The translations under genes and the position numbers were made by a program. Shown here piece after piece: positions 8,629-64,000 of a DNA stretch of 64,000 nt; position 1 is the stretch's first letter; each line of letters starts with the position of its first letter. Source of the DNA: Sipunculus nudus (lineage: Eukaryota; Annelida; Sipuncula; Golfingiida; Sipunculidae); contig CM049322.1 of the NCBI GenBank assembly GCA_026874595.1, forward strand, positions 1,535,900 to 1,599,899. Direction: 5' to 3'. The notes under the pieces are model-generated. The model was not told the DNA's origin, searched no databases, and was given only the letters and a program-made list of their open reading frames with translations.

Positions 8629-11600
8629 ATGGTCGGAAAACGCATTTATGGAGACATAGTTCCTTTGTTTACACCTTGCTTACGCTTTGCTTATGCTTTG
8701 CTTATGGTGAAAACACCAAAGAACTCAAGCATTTTTCTGCAAATACAGACAAGTATGAACCATAGGGACACAGCCTGGTTCCCTGGCTACACAATAGTGC
8801 CTGTTAGTCATCATGATTCTAAAAATAAAGGGTCAAACCGTTCTATCTAAATCAGAAAAAGATAATACTATAAATTTAAAAAAAGTGATAATATCGGGAT
8901 TAGATACCCATTTTTCTTTTTTACCTGAATTGATCAACAGTTATGTTCCAAATTCGACATAAATAGACTCTTGGAGAGCCTAATATTATATTTTATCTTC
9001 AGAATATGGTTGCAAATCGCCTTTATGGAGACATAGTTCCTTTGCTTACATTTTGCTTACGCTTTGCTTATGCTTTGCTTACGAAGAAAACACCACCGAT
9101 TTTAAGCATTATTCTACAAATACTCACAAATACTACCCATAGGGACACAGACTGGTTCACTGGCTACATAATAATACCTGTTAGTGGTCAGTACTCTAAA
9201 TATTAGGGGTCAAATCGTACAATCAAAATCAGAAATAGCTATTACTTCTCCATTTCTAAAAGTGATATAATCTAATTTAGGGACCCATTTTTCTCTTTTA
9301 ACCTCAATAATCAAAAGTTTTGTTACCATATTCGACATAAATAGACTGCTGGGAAGTCTAACATTATATTATTTCTTCGGAAAATGGTCGGAAAACGCAT
9401 TTATGGAGACATAGTTCCTTTGCTTACACTTTGCTTACGCTTTGCTTATGCTTTGCTTACGGTGAAAACACCAAAGAACTCAAGCATTTTTCTGCAAATA
9501 CAGACAAGTATGAACCATAGGGACACAGCCTGGTTCCGTGGCTACACAATAGTGCCTGTTAGTCATCATGAATCTAAAAATTAAGGGTCAAACCGTTACA
9601 TCTAAATCAGAAATAGATAATACTATAAATTTCAAAAAAGTGATAATATCGGGATTAGATACCCATTTTTCTTTTTTACCTGAATTGATCAACAGTTATG
9701 TTCCAAATTCGACATAAATAGACTCTTGGAGAGCCTAATATTATATTTTATCTTCAGAATATGGTTGCAAATCGCCTTTATGGAGACATAGTTCCGTTGC
9801 TTACATTTTGCTTACGCTTTGCTTATGCTTTGCTTACGAAGAAAACACCACAGAATTTAAACATTTCTCTACAAATACTCACAAATACTACCCATAGGGA
9901 CACTGACTGGTTCACTGGCTACACGATTATACCTGTTGGTGGACAGTACTCTAAATATTAGGGGTCAAATCGTACAATCAAAATCAGAAATAGCTATTAC
10001 TTCTCAATTCTAAAAGTGATATAATCTAGTTTAGGGACCCATTTTTCTCTTTTAACCTCAATAATCAAAAGTTTTTTTACCATATTCGACATAAATAGAC
10101 TGCTGGGAAGTCTAACATTATATAATTTCTTCGGAAAATGGTCGGAAAACGCATTTATGGAGACATAGTTCCTTTGTTTACACCTTGCTTACGCTTTGCT
10201 TATGCTTTGCTTATGGTGAAAACACCAAAGAACTCAAGCATTTTTCTGCAAATACAGACAAGTATGAACCATAGGGACACAGCCTGGTTCCCTGGCTACA
10301 CAATAGTGCCTGTTAGTCATCATGAATCTAAAAATAAAGGGTCAAACCGTTCTATCTAAATCAGAAATAGATAATACTATAAATTTAAAAAAAGTGATAA
10401 TATCGGGATTAGATACCCATTTTTCTTTTTTACCTGAATTGATCAACAGTTATGTTCCAAATTCGACATAAATAGACTCTTGGAGAGCCTAATATTATAT
10501 TTTATCTTCAGAATATGGTTGCAAATCGCCTTTATGGAGACATAGTTCCTTTGCTTACATTTTGCTTACGCTTTGCTTATGCTTTGCTTACGAAGAAAAC
10601 ACCACAGATTTTAAGCATTTTTCTACAAATACTCACAAATACTACCCATAGGGACACTGACTGGTTCACTGGCTACACGAAAATACCTGTTAGTGTTCAG
10701 TACTCTAAATATTAGGGATCATATCGTACAATCAAAATCAGAAATAGCTATTACTTCTCAATTCTAAAAGTGATATAATCTAATTTAGGGACCCATTTTT
10801 CTCTTTTAACCTCAATAATCAAAAGTTTTTATACCATATTCGACATAAATAGACTGCTGGGAAGTCTAACATTATATTATTTCTTCGGAAAATGGTCGGA
10901 AAACGCATTTATGGAGAAATAGTTCCTTTGCTTACACTTTGCTTACGCTTTGCTTATGCTTTTCTTACGGTGAAAACACCAAAGAACTCAAGCAATTTTT
11001 TTGAAATACAGACAAGTATGAACCATAGGGACACAGCCTGGTTCCCTGGCTACACAATAGTGCCTGTAAGTCATCACGAATCTAAAAATTAAGGGTCAAA
11101 CCGTTCTAACTAAATCAGAAATAGATAATACTATTAATTTCAAAAAGTGATAATATCGAGTTTAGGGAGCCATTTTTCTTTTTTACCTGAAGTGATCAAC
11201 AGTTATGTTCCTTCGACATAGATAGACTCTTGGAGAGCCTAATATTATATTATATCTGCAGAATATGGTTGCAAATCGCCTTTATGGAGACATAGTTCCG
11301 TTGCTTACATTTTGCTTACGCTTTGCTTATGCTTTGCTTACGAAGAAAACACCACCGATTTTAAGCATTATTCTACAAATACTCACAAATACTACCCATA
11401 GGGACACAGATTGGTTCACTGGCTACATAATAATACCTGTTAGTGGTCAGTACTCTAAATATTAGGGGTCAAATCGTACAATCAAAATCAGAAATAGCTA
11501 TTACTTCTCAATTCTAAAAGTGATATAATCTAATTTAGGGACCCATTTTTCTCTTTTAACCTCAATAATCAAAAGTTTTTTTACCATATTCGACATAAAT

Positions 11601-14600
11601 AGACTGCTGGGAAGTCTAACATTATATTATTTCTTCGGAAAATGGTCGGAAAACGCATTTATGGAGACATAGTTCCTTTGCTTACACTTTGCTTACGCTT
11701 TGCTTATGCTTTGCTTACGGTGAAAACACCAAAGAACTCAAGCATTTTTCTGCAAATAAAGACAAGTATGAACCATACGGACACAGCCTGGTTCCATGGC
11801 TACACAATAGTGCCTGTTAGTCATCATGAATCTAAAAATTAAGGGTCAAACCGTTCCATCTAAATCAGAAATAGATAATACTATAAATTTAAAAAAAGTG
11901 ATAATATCGGGATTAGATACCCATTTTTCTTTTTTACCTGAATTGATCAACAGTTATGTTCCAAATTCGACATAAATAGACTCTTGGAGAGCCTAATATT
12001 ATATTTTATCTTCAGAATATGGTTGCAAATCGCCTTTATGGAGACATAGTTCCGTTGCTTACATTTTGCTTACGCTTTGCTTATGCTTTGCTTACGAAGA
12101 AAACACCACAGAATTTAAACATTTCTCTACAAATACTCACAAATACTACCCATAGGGACACTGACTGGTTCACTGGCTACACGATTATACCTGTTGGTGG
12201 ACAGTACTCTAAATATTAGGGGTCAAATCGTATAATCAAAATCAGAAATAGCTATTACTTCTCAATTCTAAAAGTGATATAATCTAGTTTAGGGACCCAT
12301 TTTTCTCTTTTAACCTCAATAATCAAAAGTTTTTTACCATATTCGACATAAATAGACTGCTGGGAAGTCTAACATTATATAATTTCTTCGGAAAATGGTC
12401 GGAAAACGCATTTATGGAGACATAGTTCCTTTGTTTACACCTTGCTTACGCTTTGCTTATGCTTTGCTTATGGTGAAAACACCAAAGAACTCAAGCATTT
12501 TTCTGCAAATACAGACAAGTATGAACCATAGGGACACAGCCTGGTTCCCTGGCTACACAATAGTGCCTGTTAGTCATCATGATTCTAAAAATAAAGGGTC
12601 AAACCGTTCTATCTAAATCAGAAATAGATAATACTATTAATTTCAAAAAGTGATAATATCGAGTTTTAGATACCCATTTTTCTTTTTTACCTGAATTGAT
12701 TAACAGTTATGTTCCTTCGACATAGATAGACTCTTGGAGAGCCTAATATTATATTATACCTTCAGAATATGGTTGCAAATCTCCTTTATGGAGACATAGT
12801 TCCTTTGCTTACATTTTGCTTACGCTTTGCTTATGCTTTGCTTACGAAGAAAACACCACCGATTTTAAGCATTATTCTACAAATACTCACAAATACTACC
12901 CATAGGAACACAGACTGGTTCACTGGCTACATAATAATACCTGTTAGTGGTCAGTACTCTAAATATTAGGGGTCAAATCGTACAATCAAAATCAGAAATA
13001 GCTATTACTTCTCCATTTCTAAAAGTGATATAATCTAATTTAGGGACCCATTTTTCTCTTTTAACCTCAATAATCAAAAGTTTTGTTACCATATTCGACA
13101 TAAATAGACTGCTGGGAAGTCTAACATTATATTATTTCTTCGGAAAATGGTCGGAAAACGCATTTATGGAGACATAGTTCCTTTGCTTACACTTTGCTTA
13201 CGCTTTGCTTATGCTTTGCTTACGGTGAAAACACCAAAGAACTCAAGCATTTTTCTGCAAATACAGACAAGTATGAACCATAGGGACACAGCCTGGTTCC
13301 CTGGCTACACAATAGTGCCTGTTAGTCATCATGAATCTAAAAATTAAGGGTCAAACCGTTCCATCTAAATCAGAAATTGATAATACTATAAATTTAAAAA
13401 AAGTGATAATATCGGGATTAGGGACCCATTCTTCTTTTTTACCTGAATTGATCAACAGTTATGTTCCAAATTCGACATAGATAGACTCTTGGAGAGCCTA
13501 ATAATATATTATATCTTCAGAATATGGTTGCAAATCGCCTTTATGGAGACATAGTTCCTTTGCTTACATTTTGCTTACGCTTTGCTTATGCTTTGCTTAC
13601 GAAGAAAACACCAAAGAACTCAAGCATTTTTCTGCAAATACAGACAAGTATGAACCATAGGGACACAGCCTGGTTCCCTGGCTACACAATAGTGCCTGTT
13701 AGTCATCATGATTCTAAAAATAAAGGGTCAAACCGTTCTATCTAAATCAGAAATAGATAATACTATTAATTTCAAAAAGTGATAATATCGAGTTTTAGAT
13801 ACCCATTTTTCTTTTTTACCTGAATTGATTAACAGTTATGTTCCTTCGACATAGATAGACTCTTGGAGAGCCTAATATTATATTATACCTTCAGAATATG
13901 GTTGCAAATCTCCTTTATGGAGACATAGTTCCTTTGCTTACATTTTGCTTACGCTTTGCTTATGCTTTGCTTACGAAGAAAACACCACCGATTTTAAGCA
14001 TTATTCTACAAATACTCACAAATACTACCCATAGGAACACAGACTGGTTCACTGGCTACATAATAATACCTGTTAGTGGTCAGTACTCTAAATATTAGGG
14101 GTCAAATCGTACAATCAAAATCAGAAATAGCTATTACTTCTCCATTTCTAAAAGTGATATAATCTAATTTAGGGACCCATTTTTCTCTTTTAACCTCAAT
14201 AATCAAAAGTTTTGTTACCATATTCGACATAAATAGACTGCTGGGAAGTCTAACATTATATTATTTCTTCGGAAAATGGTCGGAAAAAGCATTTATGGAG
14301 ACATAGTTCCTTTGCTTACACTTTGCTTACGCTTTGCTTATGCTTTGCTTACGGTGAAAACACCAAAGAACTCAAGCATTTTTCTGCAAATACAGACAAG
14401 TATGAACCATAGGGACACAGCCTGGTTCCCTGGCTACACAATAGTGCCTGTTAGTCATCATGAATCTAAAAATTAAGGGTCAAACCGTTCCATCTAAATC
14501 AGAAATTGATAATACTATAAATTTAAAAAAAGTGATAATATCGGGATTAGGGACCCATTCTTCTTTTTTACCTGAATTGATCAACAGTTATGTTCCAAAT

Positions 14601-14652
14601 TCGACATAGATAGACTCTTGGAGAGCCTAATAATATATTATATCTTCAGAAT
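8629..14652 (+). repeat. 17-monomer block, copy 2 (16 monomers retained)
   Basis: This copy follows the same monomer order as 2231 onward, from 8629 (B1) to 14276 (B2), including a hybrid at 13524. Identity with copy 1 stops near 14457, where this copy keeps CATGAATCT while copy 1 has CATGATTCT. The monomer that follows at 14653 is A1, not the mosaic A seen at 8253. A private change, GGAAAAAGC near 14281, distinguishes monomer 14276. This block also starts mega-unit 1. Confidence 0.9.
13524..13897 (+). repeat. A/B hybrid monomer, copy 2
   Basis: This has the same class A start, class B end and crossover position as the monomer at 7127. It was carried along by duplication of the 17-monomer block. 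Confidence 0.93.
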
Positions 14653-17600: not shown

Positions 17601-17661
17601 TATGTTCCTTCGACATAGATAGACTCTTGGAGAGCCTAATATTATATTATATCTTCAGAAT
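14653..17661 (+). repeat. Mixed segment leading into the B4-A6-B6 module
   Basis: Monomer order is A1 (14653), B2 (15030), an A2 variant (15408, with GACTGTTTCAC and ATACTTGTTGG), B4 (15786), A6 (16158), B6 (16535), A4 (16912) and B5 (17289). It is repeated at 43619-46628. Confidence 0.85.
15786..16911 (+). repeat. B4-A6-B6 module, copy 1
   Basis: Three successive variant monomers always occur together. B4 contains CTTAAGCTTTGC (AAGCTT at 15839). A6 contains CCCTTAGGGAC and AATATTTAGGG. B6 contains TTTTTTTTAAATAC. This copy has TTTGATATAAAT near 16482, shared only with the copy at 44752. Confidence 0.88.
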
Positions 17662-23300: not shown

Positions 23301-24805
23301 ATGGTCGGAAAACGCATTTATGGAGACATAGTTCCTTTGTTTACACCTTGCTTACGCTTTGCTTATGCTTTGCTTATGGTGAAAACACCAAAGAACTCAA
23401 GCATTTTTCTGCAAATACAGACAAGTATGAACCATAGGGACACAGCCTGGTTCCCTGGCTACACAATAGTGCCTGTTAGTCATCATGAATCTAAAAATTA
23501 AGGGTCAAACCGTTCTATCTAAATCAGAAATAGATAATACTATAAATTTCAAAAAAGTGATAATATCGGGATTAGATACCCATTTTTCTTTTTTACCTGA
23601 ATTGATCAACAGTTATGTTCCAAATTCGACATAAATAGACTCTTGGAGAGCCTAATATTATATTTTATCTTCAGAATATGGTTGCAAATCGCCTTTATGG
23701 AGACACAGTTCCGATGCTTACATTTTGCTTACGCTTTGCTTATGCTTTGCTTACGAAGAAAACACCACAGATTTTAAGCATTTTTCTACAAACACTCACA
23801 AATACTACCCATAGGGACACTGACTGGTTCACTGGCTACACGAAAATACCTGTTAGTGGTCAGTACTCTAAATATTAGGGGTCAAATCGTACAATCAAAA
23901 TCAGAAATAGCTATTACTTCTCAATTCTAAAAGTGATATAATCTAATTTAGGGACCCATTTTTCTCTTTTAACCTCAACAATCAAAAGTTTTTATACCAT
24001 ATTCGACATAAATAGACTGCTGGGAAGTCTAACATTATATTATTTCTTCGGAAAATGGTCGGAAAACGCATTTATGGAGACATAGTTCCTTTGCATACAC
24101 TTTGCTTACGCTTTGCTTATGCTTTTATTACGGTGAAAACACCAAAGAACTCAAGCAATTTTTTGGAAATACAGACAAGTATGAACCATAGGGACACAGC
24201 CTGGTTCCCTGGCTACACAATAGTGCCTGTTAGTCATCACGAATCTAAAAATTAAGGGTCAAACCGTTCTATCTAAATCAGAAATAGATAATACTATTAA
24301 TTTCAAAAAGTGATAATATTGAGTTTAGGGAGCCATTTTTCTTTTTTACCTCAAGTGATCAACAGTTATGTTCCTTCGACATAGATAGACTCTTGGAGAG
24401 CCTAATATTATATTATATCTTCAGAATATGGTTGCAAATCGCCTTTATGGAGACATAGTTCCTTTGCTTACATTTTGCTTACGCTTTGCTTATGCTTTGC
24501 TTACGAAGAAAACACCACCGATTTTAAGCATTATTCTACAAATACTCACAAATACTACCCATAGGGACACAGACTGGTTCACTGGCTACATAATAATACC
24601 TGTTAGTGGTCAGTACTCTAAATATTAGGGGTCAAATCGTACAATCAAAATCAGAAATAGCTATTACTTCTGCATTTCTAAAAGTGATATAATCTAATTT
24701 AGGGACCCATTTTTCTCTTTTAACCTCAATAATCAAAAGTTTTGTTACCATATTCGACATAAATAGACTGCTGGGAAGTCTAACATTATATTATTTCTTC
24801 GGAAA
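23301..24805 (+). repeat. Four-monomer block (1,504 bp), copy 2
   Basis: The order is B1 (23301), A4 (23678), B5 (24055), A1 (24428). It matches copy 1 at a 1,504-bp offset until about 24669, where this copy has CTTCTGCATTTC. The equivalent place in the 20-mer block at 30825-32329 holds only a single four-monomer block. Confidence 0.9.
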
Positions 24806-26314
24806 ATGGTCGGAAAACGCATTTATGGAGACATAGTTCCTTTGCTTACACTTTGATTACGCTTTGCTTATGCTTTGCTTACGGTGAAAACACCAAAGAA
24901 CTCAAGCATTTTTCTGCAAATACAGACAAGTATGAACCATAGGGACACAGCCTGGTTCCCTGGCTACACAATAGTGCCCTGTTAGTCATCATGAATCTAA
25001 AAATTAAGGGTCAAACCGTTCCATCTAAATCAGAAATTGATAATACTATAAAATTAAAAAAAGTGATAATATCGGGATTAGGGACCCATTCTTCTTTTTT
25101 ACCTGAATTGATCAACAGTTATGTTCCAAATTCGACATAGAAAGACTCTTGGAGAGCCTAATAATATATTATATCTTCAGAATATGGTTGCAAATCGCCT
25201 TTATGGAGACATAGTTCCTTTGCTTACATTTTGCTTACGCTTTGCTTATGCTTTGCTTACGAAGAAAACACCACCGATTTTAAGCATTATTCTACAAATA
25301 CTCACAAATACTACCCATAGGGACACAGATTGGTTCACTGGCTACATAATAATACCTGTTAGTGGTCAGTACTCTAAATATTAGGGGTCAAATCGTACAA
25401 TCAAAATCAGAAATAGCTATTACTTCTCAATTCTAAAAGTGATATAATCTAATTTAGGGACCCATTTTTCTCTTTTAACCTCAATAATCAAAAGTTTTTT
25501 TACCATATTCGCATAAATAGACTGCTGGGAAGTCTAACATTATATTATTTCTTCGGAAAATGGTCGGAAAACGCATTTATGGAGACATAGTTCCTTTGCT
25601 TACACTTTGCTTACGCTTTGCTTATGCTTTGCTTACGGTGAAAACACCAAAGAACTCAAGCATTTTTCTGCAAATACAGACAAGTATGAACCATAGGGAC
25701 ACAGCCTGGTTCCGTGGCTACACAATAGTGCCTGTTAGTCATCATGAATCTAAAAATTAAGGGTCAAACCGTTACATCTAAATCAGAAATAGATAATACT
25801 ATAAATTTCAAAAAAAGTGATAATATCGGGATTAGATACCCATTTTTCTTTTTTACCTGAATTGATCAACAGTTATGTTCCAAATTCGACATAAATAGAC
25901 TCTTGGAGAGCCTAATATTATATTTTATCTTCAGAATATGGTTGCAAATCGCCTTTATGGAGACATAGTTCCGTTGCTTACATTTTGCTTACGCTTTGCT
26001 TATGCTTTGCTTACGAAGAAAACACCACAGAATTTAAACATTTCTCTACAAATACTCACAAATACTACCCATAGGGACACTGACTGGTTCACTGGCTACA
26101 CGATTATACCTGTTGGTGGACAGTACTCTAAATATTAGGGGTCAAATCGTACAATCAAAATCAGAAATAGCTATTACTTCTCAATTCTAAAAGTGATATA
26201 ATCTAGTTTAGGGACCCATTTTTCTCTTTTAACCTCAATAATCAAAAGTTTTTTTACCATATTCGACATAAATAGACTGCTGGGAAGTCTAACATTATAT
26301 AATTTCTTCGGAAA
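24806..26314 (+). repeat. Linking segment B2-A1-B2-A2
   Basis: Monomer starts are 24806, 25184, 25560 and 25938. Monomer 24806 has TTTGATTACG in the 11-bp region and an extra C in GTGCCCTG near 24975. The tail before 25184 has ACATAGAAAGAC, shared with 32644 and the mega-duplicates. The segment matches 32330-33837 at about a 7,523-bp offset. Confidence 0.85.
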
Positions 26315-29300
26315 ATGGTCGGAAAACGCATTTATGGAGACATAGTTCCTTTGTTTACACCTTGCTTACGCTTTGCTTATGCTTTGCTTATGGTGAAAAC
26401 ACCAAAGAACTCAAGCATTTTTCTGCAAATACAGACAAGTATGAACCATAGGGACACAGCCTGGTTCCCTGGCTACACAGTAGTGCCTGTTAGTCATCAT
26501 GAATCTAAAAATAAAGGGTCAAACCGTTCTATCTAAATCAGAAATAGATAATACTATAAATTTCAAAAAAGTGATAATATCGGGATTAGATACCCATTTT
26601 TCTTTTTTACCTGAATTGATCAACAGTTATGTTCCAAATTCGACATAAATAGACTCTTGGAGAGCCTAATATTATATTTTATCTTCAGAATATGGTTGCA
26701 AATCGCCTTTATGGAGACATAATTCCTTTGCTTACATTTTGCTTACGCTTTGCTTATGCTTTGCTTACGAAGAAAACACCACCGATTTTAAGCATTTTTC
26801 TACAAATACTCACAAATACTACCCATAGGGACACTGACTGGTTCACTGGCTACACGAAAATACCTGTTAGTGTTCAGTACTCTAAATATTAGGGATCAAA
26901 TCGTACAATCAAAATCAGAAATAGCTATTACTTCTCAATTCTAAAAGTGATATAATCTAATTTAGGGACCCATTTTTCTCTTTTAACCTCAATATTCAAA
27001 AGTTTTTATACCATATTCGACATAAATAGACTGCTGGGAAGTCTAACATTATATTATTTCTTCGGAAAATGGTCGAAAAACGCATTTATGGAGAAATAGT
27101 TCCTTTGCTTACACTTTGCTTACGCTTTGATTATGCTTTTCTTACGGTGAAAACACCAAAGATCTCAAGCAATTTTTTTGAAATACAGACAAGTATGAAC
27201 CATAGGGACACAGCCTGGTTCCCTGGCTACACAATAGTGCCTGTAAGTCATCATGAATCTAAAAATTAAGGGTCAAACCGTTCTAACTAAATCAGAAATA
27301 GATAATACTATTAATTTCAAAAAGTGATAATATCGAGTTTAGGGAGCCATTTTTCTTTTTTACCTGAAGTGATCAACAGTTATGTTCCTTCGACATAGAT
27401 AGACTCTTGGAGAGCCTAATATTATATTATATCTGCAGAATATGGTTGCAAATCGCCTTTATGGAGACATAGTTCCGTTGCTTACATTTTACTTACGCTT
27501 TGCTTATGCTTTGCTTACGAAGAAAACACCACCGATTTTAAGCATTATTCTACAAATACTCACAAATACTACCCATAGGGACACAGATTGGTTCACTGGC
27601 TACATAATAATACCTGTTAGTGGTCAGTACTCTAAATATTAGGGGTCAAATCGTACAATCAAAATCAGAAATAGCTATTACTTCTCAATTCTAAAAGTGA
27701 TATAATCTAATTTAGGGACCCATTTTTCTCTTTTAACCTCAATAATCAAAAGTTTTTTTTACCATATTCGACATAAATAGACTGCTGGGAAGTCTAACAT
27801 TATATTATTTCTTCGGAAAATGGTCGGAAACGCATTTATGGAGACATAGTTCCTTTGCTTACACTTTGCTTACGCTTTGCTTATGCTTTGCTTACGGTGA
27901 AAACACCAAAGAACTCAAGCATTTTTCTGCAAATACAGACAAGTATGAACCATACGGACACAGCCTGGTTCCGTGGCTACACAATAGTGCCTGTTAGTCA
28001 TCATGAATCTAAAAATTAAGGGTCAAACCGTTCCATCTAAATCAGAAATAGATAATACTATAAATTTCAAAAAAGTGATAATATCGGGATTAGATACCCA
28101 TTTTTCTTTTTTACCTGAATTGATCAACAGTTATGTTCCAAATTCGACATAAATAGACTCTTGGAGAGCCTAATATTATATTTTATCTTCAGAATATGGT
28201 TGCAAATCGCCTTTATGGAGACATAGTTCCGTTGCTTACATTTTGCTTACGCTTTGCTTATGCTTTGCTTACGAAGAAAACACCACAGAATTTAAACATT
28301 TCTCTACAAATACTCACAAATACTACCCATAGGGACACTGACTGGTTCACTGGCTACACGATTATACCTGTTGGTGGACAGTACTCTAAATATTAGGGGT
28401 CAAATCGTATAATCAAAATCAGAAATAGCTATTACTTCTCAATTCTAAAAGTGATATAATCTAGTTTAGGGACCCATTTTTCTCTTTTAACCTCAATAAT
28501 CAAAAGTTTTTTACCATATTCGACATAAATAGACTGCTGGGAAGTCTAACATTATATAATTTCTTCGGAAAATGGTCGGAAAACGCATTTATGGAGACAT
28601 AGTTCCTTTGTTTACACCTTGCTTACGCTTTGCTTATGCTTTGCTTATGGTGAAAACACCAAAGAACTCAAGCATTTTTCTGCAAATACAGACAAGTATG
28701 AACCATAGGGACACAGCCTGGTTCCCTGGCTACACAATAGTGCCTGTTAGTCATCATGATTCTAAAAATTAAGGGTCAAACCGTTCTATCTAAATCAGAA
28801 AAAGATAATACTATAAATTTTAAAAAAGTGATAATATCGGGATTAGATACCCATTTTTCTTTTTTACCTGAATTGATCAACAGTTATGTTCCAAATTCGA
28901 CATAAATAGACTCTTGGAGAGCCTAATATTATATTATATCTTCAGAATATGGTTGCAAATCGCCTTTATGGAGACATAGTTCCTTTGCTTACATTTTGCT
29001 TACGCTTTGCTTATGCTTTGCTTACGAAGAAAACACCACCGATTTTAAGCATTATTCTACAAATACTCACAAATACTACCCATAGGGACACAGACTGGTT
29101 CACTGGCTACATAATAATACCTGTTAGTGGTCAGTACTCTAAATATTAGGGGTCAAATCGTACAATCAAAATCAGAAATAGCTATTACTTCTCCATTTCT
29201 AAAAGTGATATAATCTAATTTAGGGACCCATTTTTCTCTTTTAACCTCAATAATCAAAAGTTTTTTACCATATTCGACATAAATAGACTGCTGGGAAGTC

Positions 29301-32300
29301 TAACATTATATTATTTCTTCGGAAAATGGTCGCAAAACGCACTTATGGAGACATAGTTCCTTTGCTTACACTTTGCTTAAGCTTTGCTTATGCTTTTATT
29401 ACGGTGAAAACACCAAAGAACTCAAGCAATTTTTTGGAAATACAGACAAGTATGAACCATAGGGACACAGCCTGGTTCCCTGGCTACACAATAGTGCCTG
29501 TTAGTCATCACAAATCTAAAAATTAAGGGTCAAACCGTTCTATCTAATTCAGAAATAGATAATACTATTAATTTCAAAAAGTGATAATATTGAGTTTAGG
29601 TAGCCATTTTTCTTTTTTACCTCAATTGTTCAACAGTTATGTTCCTTGACATAGATAGACTCTTGGAGAGCCTAATATTATATTATATCTTCAGAATATG
29701 GTTGCAAATCGCCTTTATGGAGACATAGTTCCTTTGCTTACATTTTGCTTACGCTTTGCTTATGCTTTGCTTACGAAGAAAATACCACCGATTTTAAGCA
29801 TTATTCTACAAATACTCACAAATACTACCCTTAGGGACACAGACTGTTTCACTGGCTACATAATAATACCTGTTAGTGGTCAGTACTCTAAATATTTAGG
29901 GTCAAATCGTACAATCAAAATCAGAAATAGCTATTACTTCTCAATTCTAAAAGTGATATAGTCTAATTTAGGGACCCATTTTTCTCTTTTAACCTCAATA
30001 ATCAAAAGTTTTTATACCATATTCGACATAAATAGACTGCTGGGAAGTCTAACATTATATTATTTCTTCGGAAAATGGTCGGAAAACGCATTTATGGAGA
30101 CATAGTTCCTTTGCTTACACTTTGCTTACGCTTTGCTTATGCTTTTCTTACGGTGAAAACACCAAAGAACCCAAGCAATTTTTTTTAAATACAGACAAGT
30201 ATGAACCATAGGGACACAGCCTGGTTCCCTGGCTACACAATACTGCCTGTTAGTCATCATGAATCTAAAAATTAAGGGTCAAACCGTTCTAACTAAATCA
30301 GAAATAGATAATACTATTAATTTCAAAAAGTGATAATATCGAGTTTAGGGAGCCATTTTTCTTTTTTACTTGAATTGATCAACAGTTATGTTCCTTCGAC
30401 ATAGATAGACTCTTGGAGAGCCTAATATTATATTATATCTGCAGAATATGGTTGCAAATCGCCTTTATGGAGACATAGTTCCGTTGCTTACATTTTGCTT
30501 ACGCTTTGCTTATGCTTTGTTTACGAAGAAAACACCTCAGAATTTAAACATTTCTCTACAAATACTCACAAATACTACCCATAGGGACACTGACTGGTTC
30601 ACTGGCTACACGATTATACCTGTTGGTGGTCAGTACTCTAAATATTAGGGGTCAAATCGTACAATCAAAATCAGAAATAGCTATTACTTCTCAATTCTAA
30701 AAGTGATATAATCTAGTTTAGGGACCCATTTTTCTCTTTTAACCTCCATAATCAAAAGTTTTTTTACCATATTCGACATAAATAGACTGCTGGGAAGTCT
30801 AACATTATATAATTTCTTCGGAAAATGGTCGGAAAACGCATTTATGGAGACATAGTTCCTTTGTTTACACCTTGCTTACGCTTTGCTTATGCTTTGCTTA
30901 TGGTGAAAACACCAAAGAACTCAAGCATTTTTCTGCAAATACAGACAAGTATGAACCATAGGGACACAGCCTGGTTCCCTGGCTACACAATAGTGCCTGT
31001 TAGTCATCATGAATCTAAAAATTAAGGGTCAAACCGTTCTATCTAAATCAGAAATAGATAATACTATAAATTTCAAAAAAGTGATAATATCGGGATTAGA
31101 TACCCATTTTTCTTTTTTACCTGAATTGATCAACAGTTATGTTCCAAATTCGACATAAATAGACTCTTGGAGAGCCTAATATTATATTTTATCTTCAGAA
31201 TATGGTTGCAAATCGCCTTTATGGAGACACAGTTCCGTTGCTTACATTTTGCTTACGATTTGCTTATGCTTTGCTTACGAAGAAAACACCACAGATTTTA
31301 AGCATTTTTCTACAAACACTCACAAATACTACCCATAGGGACACTGACTGGTTCACTGGCTACACGAAAATACCTGTTAGTGGTCAGTACTCTAAATATT
31401 AGGGGTCAAATCGTACAATCAAAATCAGAAATAGCTATTACTTCTCAATTCTAAAAGTGATATAATCTAATTTAGGGACCCATTTTTCTCTTTTAACCTC
31501 AACAATCAAAAGTTTTTATACCATATTCGACATAAATAGACTGCTGGGAAGTCTAACATTATATTATTTCTTCGGAAAATGGTCGGAAAACGCATTTATG
31601 GAGACATAGTTCCTTTGCATACACTTTGCTTACGCTTTGCTTATGCTTTTATTACGGTGAAAACACCAAAGAACTCAAGCAATTTTTTGGAAATACAGAC
31701 AAGTATGAACCATAGGGACACAGCCTGGTTCCCTGGCTACACAATAGTGCCTGTTAGTCATCACGAATCTAAAAATTAAGGGTCAAACCGTTCTATCTAA
31801 ATCAGAAATAGATAATACTATTAATTTCAAAAAGTGATAATATTGAGTTTAGGGAGCCATTTTTCTTTTTTACCTCAAGTGATCAACAGTTATGTTCCTT
31901 CGACATAGATAGACTCTTGGAGAGCCTAATTTTATATTATATCTTCAGAATATGGTTGCAAATCGCCTTTATGGAGACATAGTTCCTTTGCTTACATTTT
32001 GCTTACGCTTTGCTTATGCTTTGCTTACGAAGAAAACACCACCGATTTTAAGCATTATTCTACAAATACTCACAAATACTACCCATAGGGACACAGACTG
32101 GTTCACTGGCTACATAATAATACCTGTTAGTGGTCAGTACTCTAAATATTAGGGGTCAAATCGTACAATCAAAATCAGAAATAGCTATTACTTCTGCATT
32201 TCTAAAAGTGATATAATCTAATTTAGGGACCCATTTTTCTCTTTTAACCTCAATAATCAAAAGTTTTGTTACCATATTCGACATAAATAGACTGCTGGGA

Positions 32301-33837
32301 AGTCTAACATTATATTATTTCTTCGGAAAATGGTCGGAAAACGCATTTATGGAGACATAGTTCCTTTGCTTACACTTTGCTTACGCTTTGCTTATGCTTT
32401 GCTTACGGTGAAAACACCAAAGAACTCAAGCATTTTTCTGCAAATACAGACAAGTATGAACCATAGGGACACAGCCTGGTTCCCTGGCTACACAATAGTG
32501 CCTGTTAGTCATCATGAATCTAAAAATTAAGGGTCAAACCGTTCCATCTAAATCAGAAATTGATAATACTATAAAATTAAAAAAAGTGATAATATCGGGA
32601 TTAGGGACCCATTCTTCTTTTTTACCTGAATTGATCAACAGTTATGTTCCAAATTCGACATAGAAAGACTCTTGGAGAGCCTAATAATATATTATATCTT
32701 CAGAATATGGTTGCAAATCGCCTTTATGGAGACATAGTTCCTTTGCTTACATTTTGCTTACGCTTTGCTTATGCTTTGCTTACGAAGAAAACACCACCGA
32801 TTTTAAGCATTATTCTACAAATACTCACAAATACTACCCATAGGGACACAGATTGGTTCACTGGCTACATAATAATACCTGTTAGTGGTCAGTACTCTAA
32901 ATATTAGGGGTCAAATCGTACAATCAAAATCAGAAATAGCTATTACTTCTCAATTCTAAAAGTGATATAATCTAATTTAGGGACCCATTTTTCTCTTTTA
33001 ACCTCAATAATCAAAAGTTTTTTTACCATATTCGCATAAATAGACTGCTGGGAAGTCTAACATTATATTATTTCTTCGGAAAATGGTCGGAAAACGCATT
33101 TATGGAGACATAGTTCCTTTGCTTACACTTTGCTTACGCTTTGCTTATGCTTTGCTTACGGTGAAAACACCAAAGAACTCAAGCATTTTTCTGCAAATAC
33201 AGACAAGTATGAACCATAGGGACAGAGCCTGGTTCCGTTGCTACACAATAGTGCCTGTTAGTCATCATGAATCTAAAAATTAAGGGTCAAACCGTTACAT
33301 CTAAATCAGAAATAGATAATACTATAAATTTCAAAAAAAGTGATAATATCGGGATTAGATACCCATTTTTCTTTTTTACCTGAATTGATCAACAGTTATG
33401 TTCCAAATTCGACATAAATAGACTCTTGGAGAGCCTAATATTATATTTTATCTTCAGAATATGGTTGCAAATCGCCTTTATGGAGACATAGTTCCGTTGC
33501 TTACATTTTGCTTACGCTTTGCTTATGCTTTGCTTACGAAGAAAACACCACAGAATTTAAACATTTCTCTACAAATACTCACAAATACTACCCATAGGGA
33601 CACTGACTGGTTCACTGGCTACACGATTATACCTGTTGGTGGACAGTACTCTAAATATTAGGGGTCAAATCGTACAATCAAAATCAGAAATAGCTATTAC
33701 TTCTCAATTCTAAAAGTGATATAATCTAGTTTAGGGACCCATTTTTCTCTTTTAACCTCAATAATCAAAAGTTTTTTTACCATATTCGACATAAATAGAC
33801 TGCTGGGAAGTCTAACATTATATAATTTCTTCGGAAA
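26315..33837 (+). repeat. 20-monomer block, copy 1 (7,523 bp)
   Basis: The order is B1, A3, B3, A1, B2, A2, B1, A1, B4, A6, B6, A2, B1, A4, B5, A1, B2, A1, B2, A2. It is made of a 6-, a 6- and an 8-monomer module, each beginning with B1 (26315, 28572, 30825). The following block repeats the order at 7,523-7,524 bp. Taking flanking agreement into account, the 7.52-kb periodicity holds from about 23.1 kb to 38.5 kb, just over two periods. Monomer 27820 has lost one A in GTCGGAAACGC. Confidence 0.9.
29326..30447 (+). repeat. B4-A6-B6 module, copy 3
   Basis: AAGCTT lies at 29379. The B4 start carries GCACTTATGG, shared only with the mega-duplicate copy at 58294, and A6 ends with GATATAGTCTAA, also shared only with that copy. 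Confidence 0.88.
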
Positions 33838-36800
33838 ATGGTCGGAAAACGCATTTATTGAGACATAGTTCCTTTGTTTACACCTTGCTTACGCTTTGCT
33901 TATGCTTTGCTTATGGTGAAAACACCAAAGAACTCAAGCATTTTTCTGCAAATACAGACAAGTATGAACCATAGGGACACAGCCTGGTTCCCTGGCTACA
34001 CAGTAGTGCCTGTTAGTCATCATGAATCTAAAAATAAAGGGTCAAACCGTTCTATCTAAATCAGAAATAGATAATACTATAAATTTCAAAAAAGTGATAA
34101 TATCGGGATTAGATACCCATTTTTCTTTTTTACCTGAATTGATCAACAGTTATGTTCCAAATTCGACATAAATAGACTCTTGGAGAGCCTAATATTATAT
34201 TTTATCTTCAGAATATGGTTGCAAATCGCCTTTATGGAGACATAATTCCTTTGCTTACATTTTGCTTACGCTTTGCTTATGCTTTGCTTACGAAGAAAAC
34301 ACCACCGATTTTAAGCATTTTTCTACAAATACTCACAAATACTACCCATAGGGACACTGACTGGTTCACTGGCTAGACGAAAATACCTGTTAGTGTTCAG
34401 TACTCTAAATATTAGGGATCAAATTGTACAATCAAAATCAGAAATAGCTATTACTTCTCAATTCTAAAAGTGATATAATCTAATTTAGGGACCCATTTTT
34501 CTCTTTTAACCTCAATATTCAAAAGTTTTTATACCATATTCGACATAAATAGACTGCTGGGAAGTCTAACATTATATTATTTCTTCGGAAAATGGTCGAA
34601 AAACGCATTTATGGAGAAATAGTTCCTTTGCTTACACTTTGCTTACGCTTTGCTTATGCTTTTCTTACGGTGAAAACACCAAAGATCTCAAGCAATTTTT
34701 TTGAAATACAGACAAGTATGAACCATAGGGACACAGCCTGGTTCCCTGGCTACACAATAGTGCCTGTAAGTCATCATGAATCTAAAAATTAAGGGTCAAA
34801 CCGTTCTAACTAAATCAGAAATAGATAATACTATTAATTTCAAAAAGTGATAATATCGAGTTTAGGGAGCCATTTTTCTTTTTTACCTGAAGTGATCAAC
34901 AGTTATGTTCCTTCGACATAGATAGACTCTTGGAGAGCCTAATATTATATTATATCTGCAGAATATGGTTGCAAATCGCCTTTATGGAGACATAGTTCCG
35001 TTGCTTACATTTTGCTTACGCTTTGCTTATGCTTTGCTTACGAAGAAAACACCACCGATTTTAAGCATTATTCTACAAATACTCACAAATACTACCCATA
35101 GGGACACAGATTGGTTCACTGGCTACATAATAATACCTGTTAGTGGTCAGTACTCTAAATATTAGGGGTCAAATCGTACAATCAAAATCAGAAATAGCTA
35201 TTACTTCTCAATTCTAAAAGTGATATAATCTAATTTAGGGACCCATTTTTCTCTTTTAACCTCAATAATCAAAAGTTTTTTTTACCATATTCGACATAAA
35301 TAGACTGCTGGGAAGTCTAACATTATATTATTTCTTCGGAAAATGGTCGGGAAACGCATTTATGGAGACATAGTTCCTTTGCTTACACTTTGCTTACGCT
35401 TTGCTTATGCTTTGCTTACGGTGAAAACACCAAAGAACTCAAGCATTTTTCTGCAAATAAAGACAAGTATGAACCATACGGACACAGCCTGGTTCCGTGG
35501 CTACACAATAGTGCCTGTTAGTCATCATGAATCTAAAAATTAAGGGTCAAACCGTTCCATCTAAATCAGAAATAGATAATACTATAAATTTCAAAAAAGT
35601 GATAATATCGGGATTAGATACCCATTTTTCTTTTTTACCTGAATTGATCAACAGTTATGTTCCAAATTCGACATAAATAGACTCTTGGAGAGCCTAATAT
35701 TATATTTTATCTTCAGAATATGGTTGCAAATCGCCTTTATGGAGACATAGTTCCGTTGCTTACATTTTGCTTACGCTTTGCTTATGCTTTGCTTACGAAG
35801 AAAACACCACAGAATTTAAACATTTCTCTACAAATACTCACAAATACTACCCATAGGGACACTGACTGGTTCACTGGCTACACGATTATACCTGTTGGTG
35901 GACAGTACTCTAAATATTAGGGGTCAAATCGTATAATCAAAATCAGAAATAGCTATTACTTCTCAATTCTAAAAGTGATATAATCTAGTTTAGGGACCCA
36001 TTTTTCTCTTTTAACCTCAATAATCAAAAGTTTTTTACCATATTCGACATAAATAGACTGCTGGGAAGTCTAACATTATATAATTTCTTCGGAAAATGGT
36101 CGGAAAACGCATTTATGGAGACATAGTTCCTTTGTTTACACCTTGCTTACGCTTTGCTTATGCTTTGCTTATGGTGAAAACACCAAAGAACTCAAGCATT
36201 TTTCTGCAAATACAGACAAGTATGAACCATAGGGACACAGCCTGGTTCCCTGGCTACACAATAGTGCCTGTTAGTCATCATGATTCTAAAAATAAAGGGT
36301 CAAACCGTTCTATCTAAATCAGAAAAAGATAATACTATAAATTTAAAAAAAGTGATAATATCGGGATTAGATACCCATTTTTCTTTTTTACCTGAATTGA
36401 TCAACAGTTATGTTCCAAATTCGACATAAATAGACTCTTGGAGAGCCTAATATTATATTATATCTTCAGAATATGGTTGCAAATCGCCTTTATGGAGACA
36501 TAGTTCCTTTGCTTACATTTTGCTTACGCTTTGCTTATGCTTTGCTTACGAAGAAAAGACCACCGATTTTAAGCATTATTCTACAAATACTCACAAATAC
36601 TACCCATAGGGACACAGACTGGTTCACTGGCTACATAATAATACCTGTTAGTGGTCAGTACTCTAAATATTAGGGGTCAAATCGTACAATCAAAATCAGA
36701 AATAGCTATTACTTCTCCATTTCTAAAAGTGATATAATCTAATTTAGGGACCCATTTTTCTCTTTTAACCTCAATAATCAAAAGTTTTTTACCATATTCG

Positions 36801-38348: not shown

Positions 38349-41198
38349 ATGGTCGGAAAACGCATTTATGGAGACATAGTTCCTTTGTTTACACCTTGCT
38401 TACGCTTTGCTTATGCTTTGCTTATGGTGAAAACACCAAAGAACTCAAGCATTTTTCTGCAAATACAGACAAGTATGAACCATAGGGACACAGCCTGGTT
38501 CCCTGGCTACACAATAGTGCCTGTTAGTCATCATGATTCTAAAAATAAAGGGTCAAACCGTTCTATCTAAATCAGAAAAAGATAATACTATAAATTTAAA
38601 AAAAGTGATAATATCGGGATTAGATTCCCATTTTTCTTTTTTACCTGAATTGATCAACAGTTATGTTCCAAATTCGACATAAATAGACTCTTGGAGAGCC
38701 TAATATTATATTTTATCTTCAGAATATGGTTGCAAATCGCCTTTATGGAGACATAGTTCCTTTGCTTACATTTTGCTTACGCTTTGCTTATGCTTTGCTT
38801 ACGAAGAAAACACCACCGATTTTAAGCATTATTCTACAAATACTCACAAATACTACCCATAGGGACACAGACTGGTTCACTGGCTACATAATAATACCTG
38901 TTAGTGGTCAGTACTCTAAATATTAGGGGTCAAATCGTACAATCAAAATCAGAAATAGCTATTACTTCTCCATTTCTAAAAGTGATATAATCTTATTTAG
39001 GGACCCATTTTTCTCTTTTAACCTCAATAATCAAAAGTTTTGTTACCATATTCGACATAAATAGACTGCTGGGAAGTCTAACATTATATTATTTCTTCGG
39101 AAAATGGTCGGAAAACGCATTTATGGAGACATAGTTCCTTTGCTTACACTTTGCTAACGCTTTGCTTATGCTTTGCTTACGGTGAAAACACCAAAGAACT
39201 CAAGCATTTTTCTGCAAATACAGACAAGTATGAACCATAGGGACACAGCCTGGTTCCGTGGCTACACAATAGTGCCTGTTAGTCATCATGAATCTAAAAA
39301 TTAAGGGTCAAACCGTTACATCTAAATCAGAAATAGATAATACTATAAATTTCAAAAAAGTGATAATATCGGGATTAGATACCCATTTTTCTTTTTTACC
39401 TGAATTGATCAACAGTTATGTTCCAAATTCGACATAAATAGACTCTTGGAGAGCCTAATATTATATTTTATCTTCAGAATATGGTTGCAAATCGCCTTTA
39501 TGGAGACATAGTTCCGTTGCTTACATTTTGCTTACGCTTTGCTTATGCTTTGCTTACGAAGAAAACACCACAGAATTTAAACATTTCTCTACAAATACTC
39601 ACAAATACTACCCATAGGGACACTGACTGGTTCACTGGCTACACGATTATACCTGTTGGTGGACAGTACTCTAAATATTAGGGGTCAAATCGTACAATCA
39701 AAATCAGAAATAGCTATTACTTCTCAATTCTAAAAGTGATATAATCTAGTTTAGGGACCCATTTTTCTCTTTTAACCTCAATAATCAAAAGTTTTTTTAC
39801 CATATTCGACATAAATAGACTGCTGGGAAGTCTAACATTATATAATTTCTTCGGAAAATGGTCGGAAAACGCATTTATGGAGACATAGTTCCTTTGTTTA
39901 CACCTTGCTTACGCTTTGCTTATGCTTTGCTTATGGTGAAAACACCAAAGAACTCAAGCATTTTTCTGCAAATACAGACAAGTATGAACCATAGGGACAC
40001 AGCCTGGTTCCCTGGCTACACAATAGTGCCTGTTAGTCATCATGAATCTAAAAATAAAGGGTCAAACCGTTCTATCTAAATCAGAAATAGATAATACTAT
40101 AAATTTAAAAAAAGTGATAATATCGGGATTAGATACCCATTTTTCTTTTTTACCTGAATTGATCAACAGTTATGTTCCAAATTCGACATAAATAGACTCT
40201 TGGAGAGCCTAATATTATATTTTATCTTCAGAATATGGTTGCAAATCGCCTTTATGGAGACATAGTTCCTTTGCTTACATTTTGCTTACGCTTTGCTTAT
40301 GCTTTGCTTACGAAGAAAACACCACAGATTTTAAGCATTTTTCTACAAATACTCACAAATACTACCCATAGGAACACTGACTGGTTCACTGGCTACACGA
40401 AAATACCTGTTAGTGTTCAGTACTCTAAATATTAGGGATCATATCGTACAATCAAAATCAGAAATAGCTATTACTTCTCAATTCTAAAAGTGATATAATC
40501 TAATTTAGGGACCCATTTTTCTCTTTTAACCTCAATAATCAAAAGTTTTTATACCATATTCGACATAAATAGACTGCTGGGAAGTCTAACATTATATTAT
40601 TTCTTCGGAAAATGGTCGGAAAACGCATTTATGGAGAAATAGTTCCTTTGCTTACACTTTGCTTACGCTTTGCTTATGCTTTTCTTACGGTGAAAACACC
40701 AAAGAACTCAAGCAATTTTTTTGAAATACAGACAAGTATGAACCATAGGGACACAGCCTGGTTCCCTGGCTACACAATAGTGCCTGTAAGTCATCACGAA
40801 TCTAAAAATTAAGGGTCAAACCGTTCTAACTAAATCAGAAATAGATAATACTATTAATTTCAAAAAGTGATAATATCGAGTTTAGGGAGCCATTTTTCTT
40901 TTTTACCTGAAGTGATCAACAGTTATGTTCCTTCGACATAGATAGACTCTTGGAGAGCCTAATATTATATTATATCTGCAGAATATGGTTGCAAATCGCC
41001 TTTATGGAGACATAGTTCCGTTGCTTACATTTTGCTTACGCTTTGCTTATGCTTTGCTTACGAAGAAAACACCACCGATTTTAAGCATTATTCTACAAAT
41101 ACTCACAAATACTACCCATAGGGACACAGATTGGTTCACTGGCTACATAATAATACCTGTTAGTGGTCAGTACTCTAAATATTAGGGGTCAAATCGTA

Positions 41199-42489: not shown

Positions 42490-42863
42490 ATGGTTGCAAA
42501 TCGCCTTTATGGAGACATAGTTCCTTTGCTTACATTTTGCTTACGCTTTGCTTATGCTTTGCTTACGAAGAAAACACCAAAGAACTCAAGCATTTTTCTG
42601 CAAATACAGACAAGTATGAACCATAGGGACACAGCCTGGTTCCCTGGCTACACAATAGTGCCTGTTAGTCATCATGATTCTAAAAATAAAGGGTCAAACC
42701 GTTCTATCTAAATCAGAAATAGATAATACTATTAATTTCAAAAAGTGATAATATCGAGTTTTAGATACCCATTTTTCTTTTTTACCTGAATTGATTAACA
42801 GTTATGTTCCTTCGACATAGATAGACTCTTGGAGAGCCTAATATTATATTATACCTTCAGAAT
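42490..42863 (+). repeat. A/B hybrid monomer, copy 3
   Basis: This is the same hybrid as at 13524, found at an offset of 28,966 bp. It is the copy carried by the ~29-kb mega-duplication. Confidence 0.93.
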
Positions 42864-44751
42864 ATGGTTGCAAATCTCCTTTATGGAGACATAGTTCCTT
42901 TGCTTACATTTTGCTTACGCTTTGCTTATGCTTTGCTTACGAAGAAAACACCACCGATTTTAAGCATTATTCTACAAATACTCACAAATACTACCCATAG
43001 GAACACAGACTGGTTCACTGGCTACATAATAATACCTGTTAGTGGTCAGTACTCTAAATATTAGGGGTCAAATCGTACAATCAAAATCAGAAATAGCTAT
43101 TACTTCTCCATTTCTAAAAGTGATATAATCTAATTTAGGGACCCATTTTTCTCTTTTAACCTCAATAATCAAAAGTTTTGTTACCATATTCGACATAAAT
43201 AGACTGCTGGGAAGTCTAACATTATATTATTTCTTCGGAAAATGGTCGGAAAACGCATTTATGGAGACATAGTTCCTTTGCTTACACTTTGCTTACGCTT
43301 TGCTTATGCTTTGCTTACGGTGAAAACACCAAAGAACTCAAGCATTTTTCTGCAAATACAGACAAGTATGAACCATAGGGACACAGCCTGGTTCCCTGGC
43401 TACACAATAGTGCCTGTTAGTCATCATGAATCTAAAAATTAAGGGTCAAACCGTTCCATCTAAATCAGAAATTGATAATACTATAAATTTCAAAAAAGTG
43501 ATAATATCGGGATTAGGGACCCATTCTTCTTTTTTACCTGAATTGATCAACAGTTATGTTCCAAATTCGACATAGATAGACTCTTGGAGAGCCTAATAAT
43601 ATATTATATCTTCAGAATATGGTTGCAAATCGCCTTTATGGAGACATAGTTCCTTTGCTTACATTTTGCTTACGCTTTGCTTATGCTTTGCTTACGAAGA
43701 AAACACCACCGATTTTAAGCATTATTCTACAAATACTCACAAATACTACCCATAGGGACACAGATTGGTTCACTGGCTACATAATAATACCTGTTAGTGG
43801 TCAGTACTCTAAATATTAGGGGTCAAATCGTACAATCAAAATCAGAAATAGCTATTACTTCTCAATTCTAAAAGTGATATAATCTAATTTAGGGACCCAT
43901 TTTTCTCTTTTCACCTCAATAATCAAAAGTTTTTTTACCATATTCGACATAAATAGACTGCTGGGAAGTCTAACATTATATAATTTCTTCGGAAAATGGT
44001 CGGAAAACGCATTTATGGAGACATAGTTCCTTTGCTTACACTTTGCTTACGCTTTGCTTATGCTTTGCTTACGGTGAAAACACCAAAGAACTCAAGCATT
44101 TTTCTGCAAATACAGACAAGTATGAACCATAGGGACACAGCCTGGTTCCGTGGCTACACAATAGTGCCTGTTAGTCATCATGAATCTAAAAATTAAGGGT
44201 CAAACCGTTACATCTAAATCAGAAATAGATAATACTATAAATTTCAAAAAAAGTGATAATATCGGGATTAGATACCCATTTTTCTTTTTTACCTGAATTG
44301 ATCAACAGTTATGTTCCAAATTCGACATAAATAGACTCTTGGAGAGCCTAATATTATATTTTATCTTCAGAATATGGTTGCAAATCGCCTTTATGGAGAC
44401 ATAGTTCCGTTGCTTACATTTTGCTTACGCTTTGCTTATGCTTTGCTTACGAAGAAAACACCTCAGAACTTAAACATTTCTCTACAAATACTCACAAATA
44501 CTACCCATAGGGACACTGACTGTTTCACTGGCTACACGATTATACTTGTTGGTGGTCAGTACTCTAAATATTAGGGGTCAAATCGTACAATCAAAATCAG
44601 AAATAGCTATTACTTCTCAATTCTAAAAGTGATATAATCTAGTTTAGGGACCCATTTTTCTCTTTTAACCTCAATAATCAAAAGTTTTTTTTACCATATT
44701 CGACATAAATAGACTGCTGGGAAGTCTAACATTATATAATTTCTTCGGAAA

Positions 44752-62700: not shown

Positions 62701-62805
62701 AGGGACCCATTTTTCTCTTTTAACCTCAATAATCAAAAGTTTTTTTACCATATTCGACATAAATAGACTGCTGGGAAGTCTAACATTATATAATTTCTTC
62801 GGAAA
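53773..62805 (+). repeat. Mega-unit 2 linking segment and 20-monomer block
   Basis: The link occupies 53773-55281 and the 20-mer block starts at 55282, matching 24806-33837 at 28,967-28,968 bp. Monomer 56036 has CTTTGGTTATG where 27069 has CTTTGATTATG and other B3 copies have CTTTGCTTATG. The same base therefore exists in three states. Confidence 0.88.
58294..59415 (+). repeat. B4-A6-B6 module, copy 7
   Basis: AAGCTT lies at 58347. This is the mega-duplicate of the copy at 29326 and shares its GCACTTATGG start. Confidence 0.88.
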
Positions 62806-64000
62806 ATGGTCGGAAAACGCATTTATTGAGACATAGTTCCTTTGTTTACACCTTGCTTACGCTTTGCTTATGCTTTGCTTATGGTGAAAACACCAAAGAA
62901 CTCAAGCATTTTTCTGCAAATACAGACAAGTATGAACCATAGGGACACAGCCTGGTTCCCTGGCTACACAGTAGTGCCTGTTAGTCATCATGAATCTAAA
63001 AATAAAGGGTCAAACCGTTCTATCTAAATCAGAAATAGATAATACTATAAATTTCAAAAAAGTGATAATATCGGGATTAGATACCCATTTTTCTTTTTTA
63101 CCTGAATTGATCAACAGTTATGTTCCAAATTCGACATAAATAGACTCTTGGAGAGCCTAATATTATATTTTATCTTCAGAATATGGTTGCAAATCGCCTT
63201 TATGGAGACATAATTCCTTTGCTTACATTTTGCTTACGCTTTGCTTATGCTTTGCTTACGAAGAAAACACCACCGATTTTAAGCATTTTTCTACAAATAC
63301 TCACAAATACTACCCATAGGGACACTGACTGGTTCACTGGCTAGACGAAAATACCTGTTAGTGTTCAGTACTCTAAATATTAGGGATCAAATTGTACAAT
63401 CAAAATCAGAAATAGCTATTACTTCTCAATTCTAAAAGTGATATAATCTAATTTAGGGACCCATTTTTCTCTTTTAACCTCAATATTCAAAAGTTTTTAT
63501 ACCATATTCGACATAAATAGACTGCTGGGAAGTCTAACATTATATTATTTCTTCGGAAAATGGTCGAAAAACGCATTTATGGAGAAATAGTTCCTTTGCT
63601 TACACTTTGCTTACGCTTTGCTTATGCTTTTCTTACGGTGAAAACACCAAAGATCTCAAGCAATTTTTTTGAAATACAGACAAGTATGAACCATAGGGAC
63701 ACAGCCTGGTTCCCTGGCTACACAATAGTGCCTGTAAGTCATCATGAATCTAAAAATTAAGGGTCAAACCGTTCTAACTAAATCAGAAATAGATAATACT
63801 ATTAATTTCAAAAAGTGATAATATCGAGTTTAGGGAGCCATTTTTCTTTTTTACCTGAAGTGATCAACAGTTATGTTCCTTCGACATAGATAGACTCTTG
63901 GAGAGCCTAATATTATATTATATCTGCAGAATATGGTTGCAAATCGCCTTTATGGAGACATAGTTCCGTTGCTTACATTTTGCTTACGCTTTGCTTATGC
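62806..64000 (+). repeat. Start of another 20-monomer block, cut by the window end
   Basis: The order is B1 (62806), A3 (63183), B3 (63560) and partial A1 (63933). It carries the same ATTTATTGAGAC and GGCTAGACG changes as 33838-34592, so it is the mega-duplicate of that stretch. Confidence 0.9.

Follow-up and report, generated by a model that had tools for sequence, protein, structure and literature searches.

The closest published counterpart that we found to the locus described here is the cascading superHOR of orangutan alpha-satellite DNA, for which a 58mer on the Y chromosome and an 84mer on chromosome 5 are described in the available part of the source (PMC12428378). The copy number of the 58mer is given as 67 in the abstract of that paper and as 310 in its text and table, and its monomers are assigned to 44 distinct types (PMC12428378). 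The same source, so far as available, states the rule for a classical higher-order repeat (HOR), by which the monomers of a unit are distinct types, over ~5% apart (PMC12428378). For human alpha-satellite arrays, unequal crossing-over and break-induced replication are both discussed in the accessible portion of PMC11034957. Tandem satellites of marine invertebrates, such as those of Adamussium colbecki (PMC5874043) and the PcH-sat of Patella caerulea (PMC11121367), are comparable to the present array by description; a "377 bp" in the Patella paper was rejected as a monomer length, being a coordinate in a SINE alignment (PMC11121367). Among open-licence papers, no account of a 377-bp satellite or of higher-order repeats in molluscs or bivalves was found that could be tied to this array.

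Here we analyze a stretch of 64,000 bp, hereafter the window, from the sipunculan Sipunculus nudus (GenBank assembly GCA_026874595.1, contig CM049322.1, hereafter C17, positions 1,535,900-1,599,899), in which a 29-kb segment of a dimeric satellite recurs head to tail. It resembles the orangutan cascading superHORs, as presented in the part of that paper available, in having units of tens of monomers, inner repeated types, copies that diverge by a fraction of a percent, and several independent blocks (PMC12428378). The two systems are disparate in scale and copy number: the orangutan 58mer measures ~10 kb (calculated at 171 bp per monomer) and is present in many copies, while the unit here is 77 monomers of ~376 bp, or 28.97 kb, in two full and two shortened copies as against the 67 or 310 reported for the 58mer (PMC12428378). 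Within the 77-monomer unit we found two monomer types at a threshold of 10%, three at 6%, four at 5%, and eight at 3%; with so few types compared with the 44 of the 58mer (PMC12428378), the unit is better seen as a chain of near-alike dimers. The requirement for distinct monomer types therefore leaves only the A/B dimer as a classical HOR, and for the 29-kb unit the name superHOR-like amplified segment is more fitting. As in a cascading superHOR, it contains inner periods (a 20-monomer block and the dimer), and its copies, 0.086-0.094% divergent, fall within the limit of 5% (usually 1%) for copies of such a unit. The unit works like a cascading superHOR of few copies and is best described as a large tandem amplification of recent date within a satellite of dimers. 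Human alpha-satellite HOR arrays, going by the available part of the source, likewise show nested, recent, homogeneous blocks in an older array and an amplification that depends on register-shifted repeat homology; the human arrays underlie centromeres, and their mechanism was tested in cell lines (PMC11034957), whereas the mechanism here is inferred from sequence.

The satellite array and its location

The window belongs to a contig of 61.1 Mb in an assembly of 1.43 Gb and 153 contigs, and the analysis took in a further 40 kb on its upstream side and 100 kb on the other, for a total of 204 kb (C17:1,495,900-1,699,899); positions without a contig name are those of the window. Tandem Repeats Finder reports one array that fills the window (1-64,000) with a period of 377 and 170.1 copies, and this array, on the forward strand, consists of alternating A and B monomers that form a 754-bp dimer. 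The 204 kb divides into 541 monomers of 372 to 382 bp with zero insertions, indicating an uninterrupted, head-to-tail satellite family. The A and B monomers are ~21-24% distant and alternate strictly across the 204 kb, with breaks at six phase slips only, and approximately four copies of an 11-bp subunit are found inside each monomer. Monomers from the whole 204 kb fall into three types at 6% and six types at 5%. No Rfam family was detected in the window at gathering thresholds.

Sampling along C17 found satellite from position 120,164 to a point between 1,882,400 and 1,888,000, with non-satellite samples inside this range at 1,100,000, 1,200,000, 1,250,000, and 1,275,000. The array is accordingly placed by these samples at 0.12-1.89 Mb of the 61.1-Mb contig. 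Its strand turns at C17 ~677,586, and samples at 1,020,000 and 1,050,000 are inverted again. Around the turn (C17:676,500-678,699), the arms can be paired over 515 bp with 98.6% identity, at a shift of ~570 bp, which falls short of a perfect palindrome. An exact 29-base anchor has 2,519 occurrences in the genome, and among the 100 matches listed, 98 are on C17 and two on C14. One 20-base satellite word has all 33 of its forward matches on C17; for the other words, the listed matches (up to 100) cover the contigs as far as C17. Lone exact matches to satellite words elsewhere (C14:25,383,558, C14:25,408,373, and C11:31,915,357) may be small dispersed copies. No obvious telomere repeat was seen by eye at the ends of the contig (C17:1-1500 and C17:61,127,932-61,128,531). 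The first of these stretches has a GC content of 0.53 and a frame open to both of its ends, and the best Pfam match of this frame, Herpes_V23 (E 0.086, 12.7 bits), is under the cut-off of 25.

A profile search of the assembly for COX1 (PF00115) returned 11 matches, ten of them strong and one a weak fragment on C5; a search for egg lysin, run without a positive control, found no match. The strong matches are on C60, C61, C62, C66, C72, C74, C75, C89 (two), and C123 and have open frames under the bacterial code; both their frames and their contigs look bacterial, nine of the ten score 418.8-420.4 bits, and the C60 protein is 52-58% identical to its best 80 public relatives. Going by these features, the contigs concerned are perhaps symbionts or contaminants.

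A 29-kb tandem duplication in the window

A preliminary description of this DNA had proposed a head-to-tail duplication of ~29 kb with ~0.1% divergence, in which the monomer order from 8629 starts again at 38,349. Alignment bears this out, as 8564-35,032 recurs at 38,284-64,000 with a divergence of ~0.08%, and the measured starts of the two copies are 8564 and 38,284. Copy 1 was delimited by offset scans to 8564-38,283 on the forward strand, a length of 29,720 bp or 79 monomers that includes one extra dimer. Copy 2, located by alignment and offset scans on the same strand, has its first 25.7 kb in the window (38,284-64,000) and extends beyond it. The differences between the copies, estimated by eye in that description as about two dozen point changes plus one dimer deletion, amount to 20 substitutions, two one-base indels, and one 754-bp indel. 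With 25,715 aligned bases between copy 1 (8564-35,032) and copy 2, the substitutions correspond to 0.078%; over 12,395-35,030, the interval singled out in the preliminary description, there are 16 substitutions and the two one-base indels, or ~0.07%.

Direct comparison at fixed offsets shows that an offset of 29,720 is valid from 8564 to ~11,480-11,533. A 754-bp dimer present only in copy 1 (11,480-12,286, forward strand, edges ambiguous by 53 bp) then moves the offset to 28,966, and one-base indels near 16,108 and 27,828 move it further to 28,967 and 28,968. The number of differences around the dimer is at its minimum, seven, for gap starts of 11,480-11,533. Our first alignment returned 31 substitutions, a count inflated by 13 clustered differences at 12,110-12,233; a diverged patch at this position was considered and rejected, as the cluster is an artefact of gap placement and vanishes when the gap starts at 11,480-11,533. 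The same alignment contained paired 378-bp gaps at 33,129 and 33,513 that masked two substitutions (33,225 and 33,239).

Counted in a 77-monomer phase, unit U1 occupies 12,411-41,376 on the forward strand (28,966 bp) and unit U2, in the same phase, runs from 41,377 to window-equivalent 70,343 (28,967 bp), with 22 substitutions and three indel events between them. A unit in register with the next copy shows 0.32 differences per monomer, compared with a mean of 15.5 for 46 other rotations, making it ~48-fold closer, a match well outside what chance would give in an array of this kind. Tandem segmental duplications are defined as head-to-tail copies of more than 1 kb with more than 90% identity, and the mega-units fall within this definition.

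Continuation past the window and nested blocks

The preliminary description had tracked the repeated order to the end of the window. The order does hold to 64,000, but this position is the edge of the window only, and the register persists to C17:1,616,771 (window-equivalent 80,873), after which a further shortened copy follows. In this comparison, monomers 139-243 match monomers 216-320 (105 monomers) with 37 events in 39.5 kb, or 0.094%, consisting of 34 substitutions and three gaps. Measured from 8564, the successive units contain 79, 77, 47, and 49 monomers, the third being 17,676 bp and the fourth 18,431 bp long, and together they extend over ~C17:1,544,463-1,642,349, ~98 kb in total. Divergence between full copies is 0.086-0.094%. 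All four copies can be compared over 26 monomers (9,779 bp), where they differ pairwise by 9 to 14 substitutions. Four sites part U1 and U2 from U3 and U4, and every copy carries variants of its own. Two sites join U2 with U3 against this split, and the grouping is thus imperfectly tree-like and would need gene conversion or recurrent mutation.

A block of 20 monomers occurs twice per full unit (0.27% and 0.23% divergence). In the first mega-unit, its first copy is at 23,317-30,840 (monomers 168-187) and its second at 30,841-38,364 (monomers 188-207), both on the forward strand, at an offset of 7,524 bp and a divergence of 0.266%. Both blocks are present upstream as well. The beginning of unit 1 also has an incomplete copy upstream, at 1871-7894 on the forward strand, with an offset of 6,398 bp and three differences in 16 monomers. 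Taken together, the continuation copies, the 20-monomer blocks, and the upstream partner suggest that the 29-kb duplication is one layer in a series of nested amplifications. The youngest block in the 204 kb is at C17:1,649,674-1,664,471, where the offset is 7,532 bp, the exact match extends over 7,266 bp, and there is one difference in 19 monomers.

Hybrid monomers, flanks, and mutation patterns

Painting of diagnostic sites identified a B-to-A hybrid monomer, that is, a phase slip, in copy 1 at 13,540-13,913. Its counterpart in copy 2 at 42,506-42,879 is at distance 0 from it, and a further hybrid lies in the upstream copy at 7143-7516, all on the forward strand. In the two copies painted (70 diagnostic columns), the first three diagnostic sites are B-type and nearly all the rest are A-type. 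Five identical copies of the hybrid were found, one in each related unit and another upstream. As 77 is an odd number, a phase slip is required in each unit. The hybrid monomer marks an earlier exchange, out of register, between A and B monomers, which produced it once; later amplifications then spread it.

The 1,130 bp to the left of copy 1 align in phase with the sequence to the left of copy 2 at 96.2% identity (1,090 of 1,133 columns), and identity rises sharply to near 100% at 8564/38,284. The flanks of the copies thus share a common monomer phase, which suggests that the exchange was guided by homology between dimers in register.

When the 20 substitutions were examined in their 31-base context, 16 were found to pair an allele seen no more than twice across the 204 kb with one seen five times or more. 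Alleles that occur a single time in the 204 kb are present at 14,288/43,254, 20,536/49,503, and 31,258/60,226 (copy 1/copy 2). The rare allele is in copy 1 at eight sites and in copy 2 at eight, which is the pattern expected of mutations that postdate the copying. Some of these rare alleles occur twice and are not strictly private, and the other four differences (14,525, 20,305, 20,370, and 27,955) are without a clear new-mutation pattern. Transitions account for three of the 20 differences (binomial P of 0.10 against an expectation of one third and 0.003 against one half). The 204-kb satellite is itself transversion-rich: transitions make up 32 of its 102 singletons, and the A and B consensus sequences differ by a transition at 27 of 69 sites. 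The scarcity of transitions between the copies was considered as a sign of consensus error and rejected; since the differences between the A and B consensus sequences are transversion-rich too, the low share of transitions seems to belong to the array as such.

Other amplified domains on the contig

A second mega-unit is located ~0.8 Mb from the window (C17:690,001-740,000), where monomers 0-54 match monomers 77-131 with three events (0.015%) at an offset of 28,907 bp; its unit is exactly 77 monomers long and younger than that of the window. Recurrence at 28,902-28,912 bp was seen for 49 of 53 exact anchors; the four exceptions are one anchor at 678,179 and three adjacent ones at 713,851-715,355. 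The first repeated anchor of this domain is 1.3 kb to the right of the strand turn. The phase slip here is a hybrid of the A-to-B kind, opposite to the B-to-A hybrid of the window. Distant homology between this domain and the unit in the window was considered and rejected, as the longest diagonal shared by the two is two monomers at a loose threshold; nor is any rotation distinctive, since the mean over 48 rotations is 17.9 differences per monomer (sd 0.6) and the best of them gives 16.7.

A third domain (C17 ~841,000-907,500) has an offset of 29,297 bp in its right half (four of four anchors; 9,903 bp at 99.98%) and of 39,075 bp in its left half, the halves differing by one block of 9,778 bp or ~26 monomers. 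Further periods on the contig are ~35 monomers, which was checked in the sequence, and 20, together with 29, 28, and 18, which come from pattern positions only. Pattern matches at C17:1,306k-1,336k gave an offset of 28,915 bp, and another 77-monomer domain was considered there but rejected as chance, the places involved being just 94.9% identical; the true repeat there is 13,154 bp, with 99.57% identity over 3,451 bp. Nor does the recurring 35-monomer period represent one old block, as the blocks of 13,218 bp and 13,154 bp are ~95% alike, which is the background level.

Discussion

We propose, with a probability of roughly 0.85, that this megabase-scale array of 754-bp dimers is enlarged by one tandem amplification after another, through recombination that is guided by homology and out of register. 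The common phase of the flanks, the recurrent hybrid monomer, the rare alleles on either side, and the unbroken dimer array favor this account. Sister chromatids or homologues would have been the partners, with their dimers paired in shifted register, and the exchange may have been either unequal crossing-over or break-induced replication that restarted in another register. The older A/B hybrid monomer was carried along when the 28.97-kb segment of 77 monomers was copied, and later exchanges or annealing could have removed the dimer and larger blocks from single copies. This account presumes an assembly that is true at this locus. The amplified blocks of several sizes elsewhere on C17 suggest that the array amplifies in this way as a rule. 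The unequal crossing-over model of Smith (1976) is said to predict periodicities nested in one another, blocks of mosaic composition, and hybrid monomers at junctions; these predictions resemble the features seen here, although it is a general model and not a described locus.

The preliminary description had taken the duplication to imply a very recent large unequal exchange or segmental amplification. An out-of-register amplification fits, but the number of related units is at least four, not two, and several younger blocks are found on C17. Where compared, younger amplifications on this contig diverge by 0.014%, 0.015%, 0.02% (over 9.9 kb), and 0.03% (over 3.5 kb). "Very recent" is therefore apt only in a relative sense, as the divergence is ~48-fold below that of other in-phase rotations and yet the duplication is older than several amplifications on the same contig.

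It is unlikely that the duplication is an assembly artefact, in which two haplotypes, or a single repeat path followed twice, were placed end to end and the second unit would be absent from both chromosomes. Satellites do tangle assembly graphs, a divergence of 0.08-0.09% is also possible between two alleles, and the 754-bp indel and the presence of rare alleles on both sides are compatible with two alleles as well. Two haplotypes, however, give two copies at most, and the run here contains more than two related copies, of 79, 77, 47, and 49 monomers, each with its own variants. Furthermore, the longest exact match is 6,593 bp between the mega-units and 7,266 bp in the 204 kb, both below the usual length of long reads, which should cross them. 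The amplified blocks of other sizes elsewhere on C17 likewise argue against a duplication made by the assembly. The duplication is real in the assembly; its mechanism is ordinary and its scale large.

Another, very unlikely explanation is that a 29-kb extrachromosomal circle was excised from the array, may have been multiplied by rolling-circle replication, and returned to the array through homology. Head-to-tail copies in phase are indeed the expected trace of such a reinsertion, and the equal units of 77 monomers in two unrelated domains could reflect a preferred size of circle, but the unequal lengths of the copies within the run look more like stepwise exchange than a single rolling-circle burst. 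The letters of the DNA alone do not separate unequal crossing-over, break-induced replication, and reinsertion of a circle. We also consider it very unlikely that the size of the amplified units is set physically, by chromatin loops, replicons, or circles of ~29 kb, rather than by random register shifts; such a limit would lead one to expect the two unrelated 77-monomer units (28,966 and 28,907 bp) and the 29,297-bp offset of the third domain. The two equal 77-monomer units are probably a coincidence, because periods on the contig spread widely and the choice of this one was made after the fact.

Nothing points to a function for the 29-kb unit, which most likely arose as a side product of turnover in the array. 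As a feature it is an ordinary case of such turnover, with a unit of unusually large size. Its interest for the biology of such arrays is that the steps of amplification on C17 can be ordered in time, using copies that diverge by 0.014% to 0.4%, hybrids at junctions, and shortened copies, and we expect that models of array growth may thereby be tested outside primates. If unit lengths truly do recur near 29 kb, this would point to a built-in length scale that random unequal exchange does not predict.
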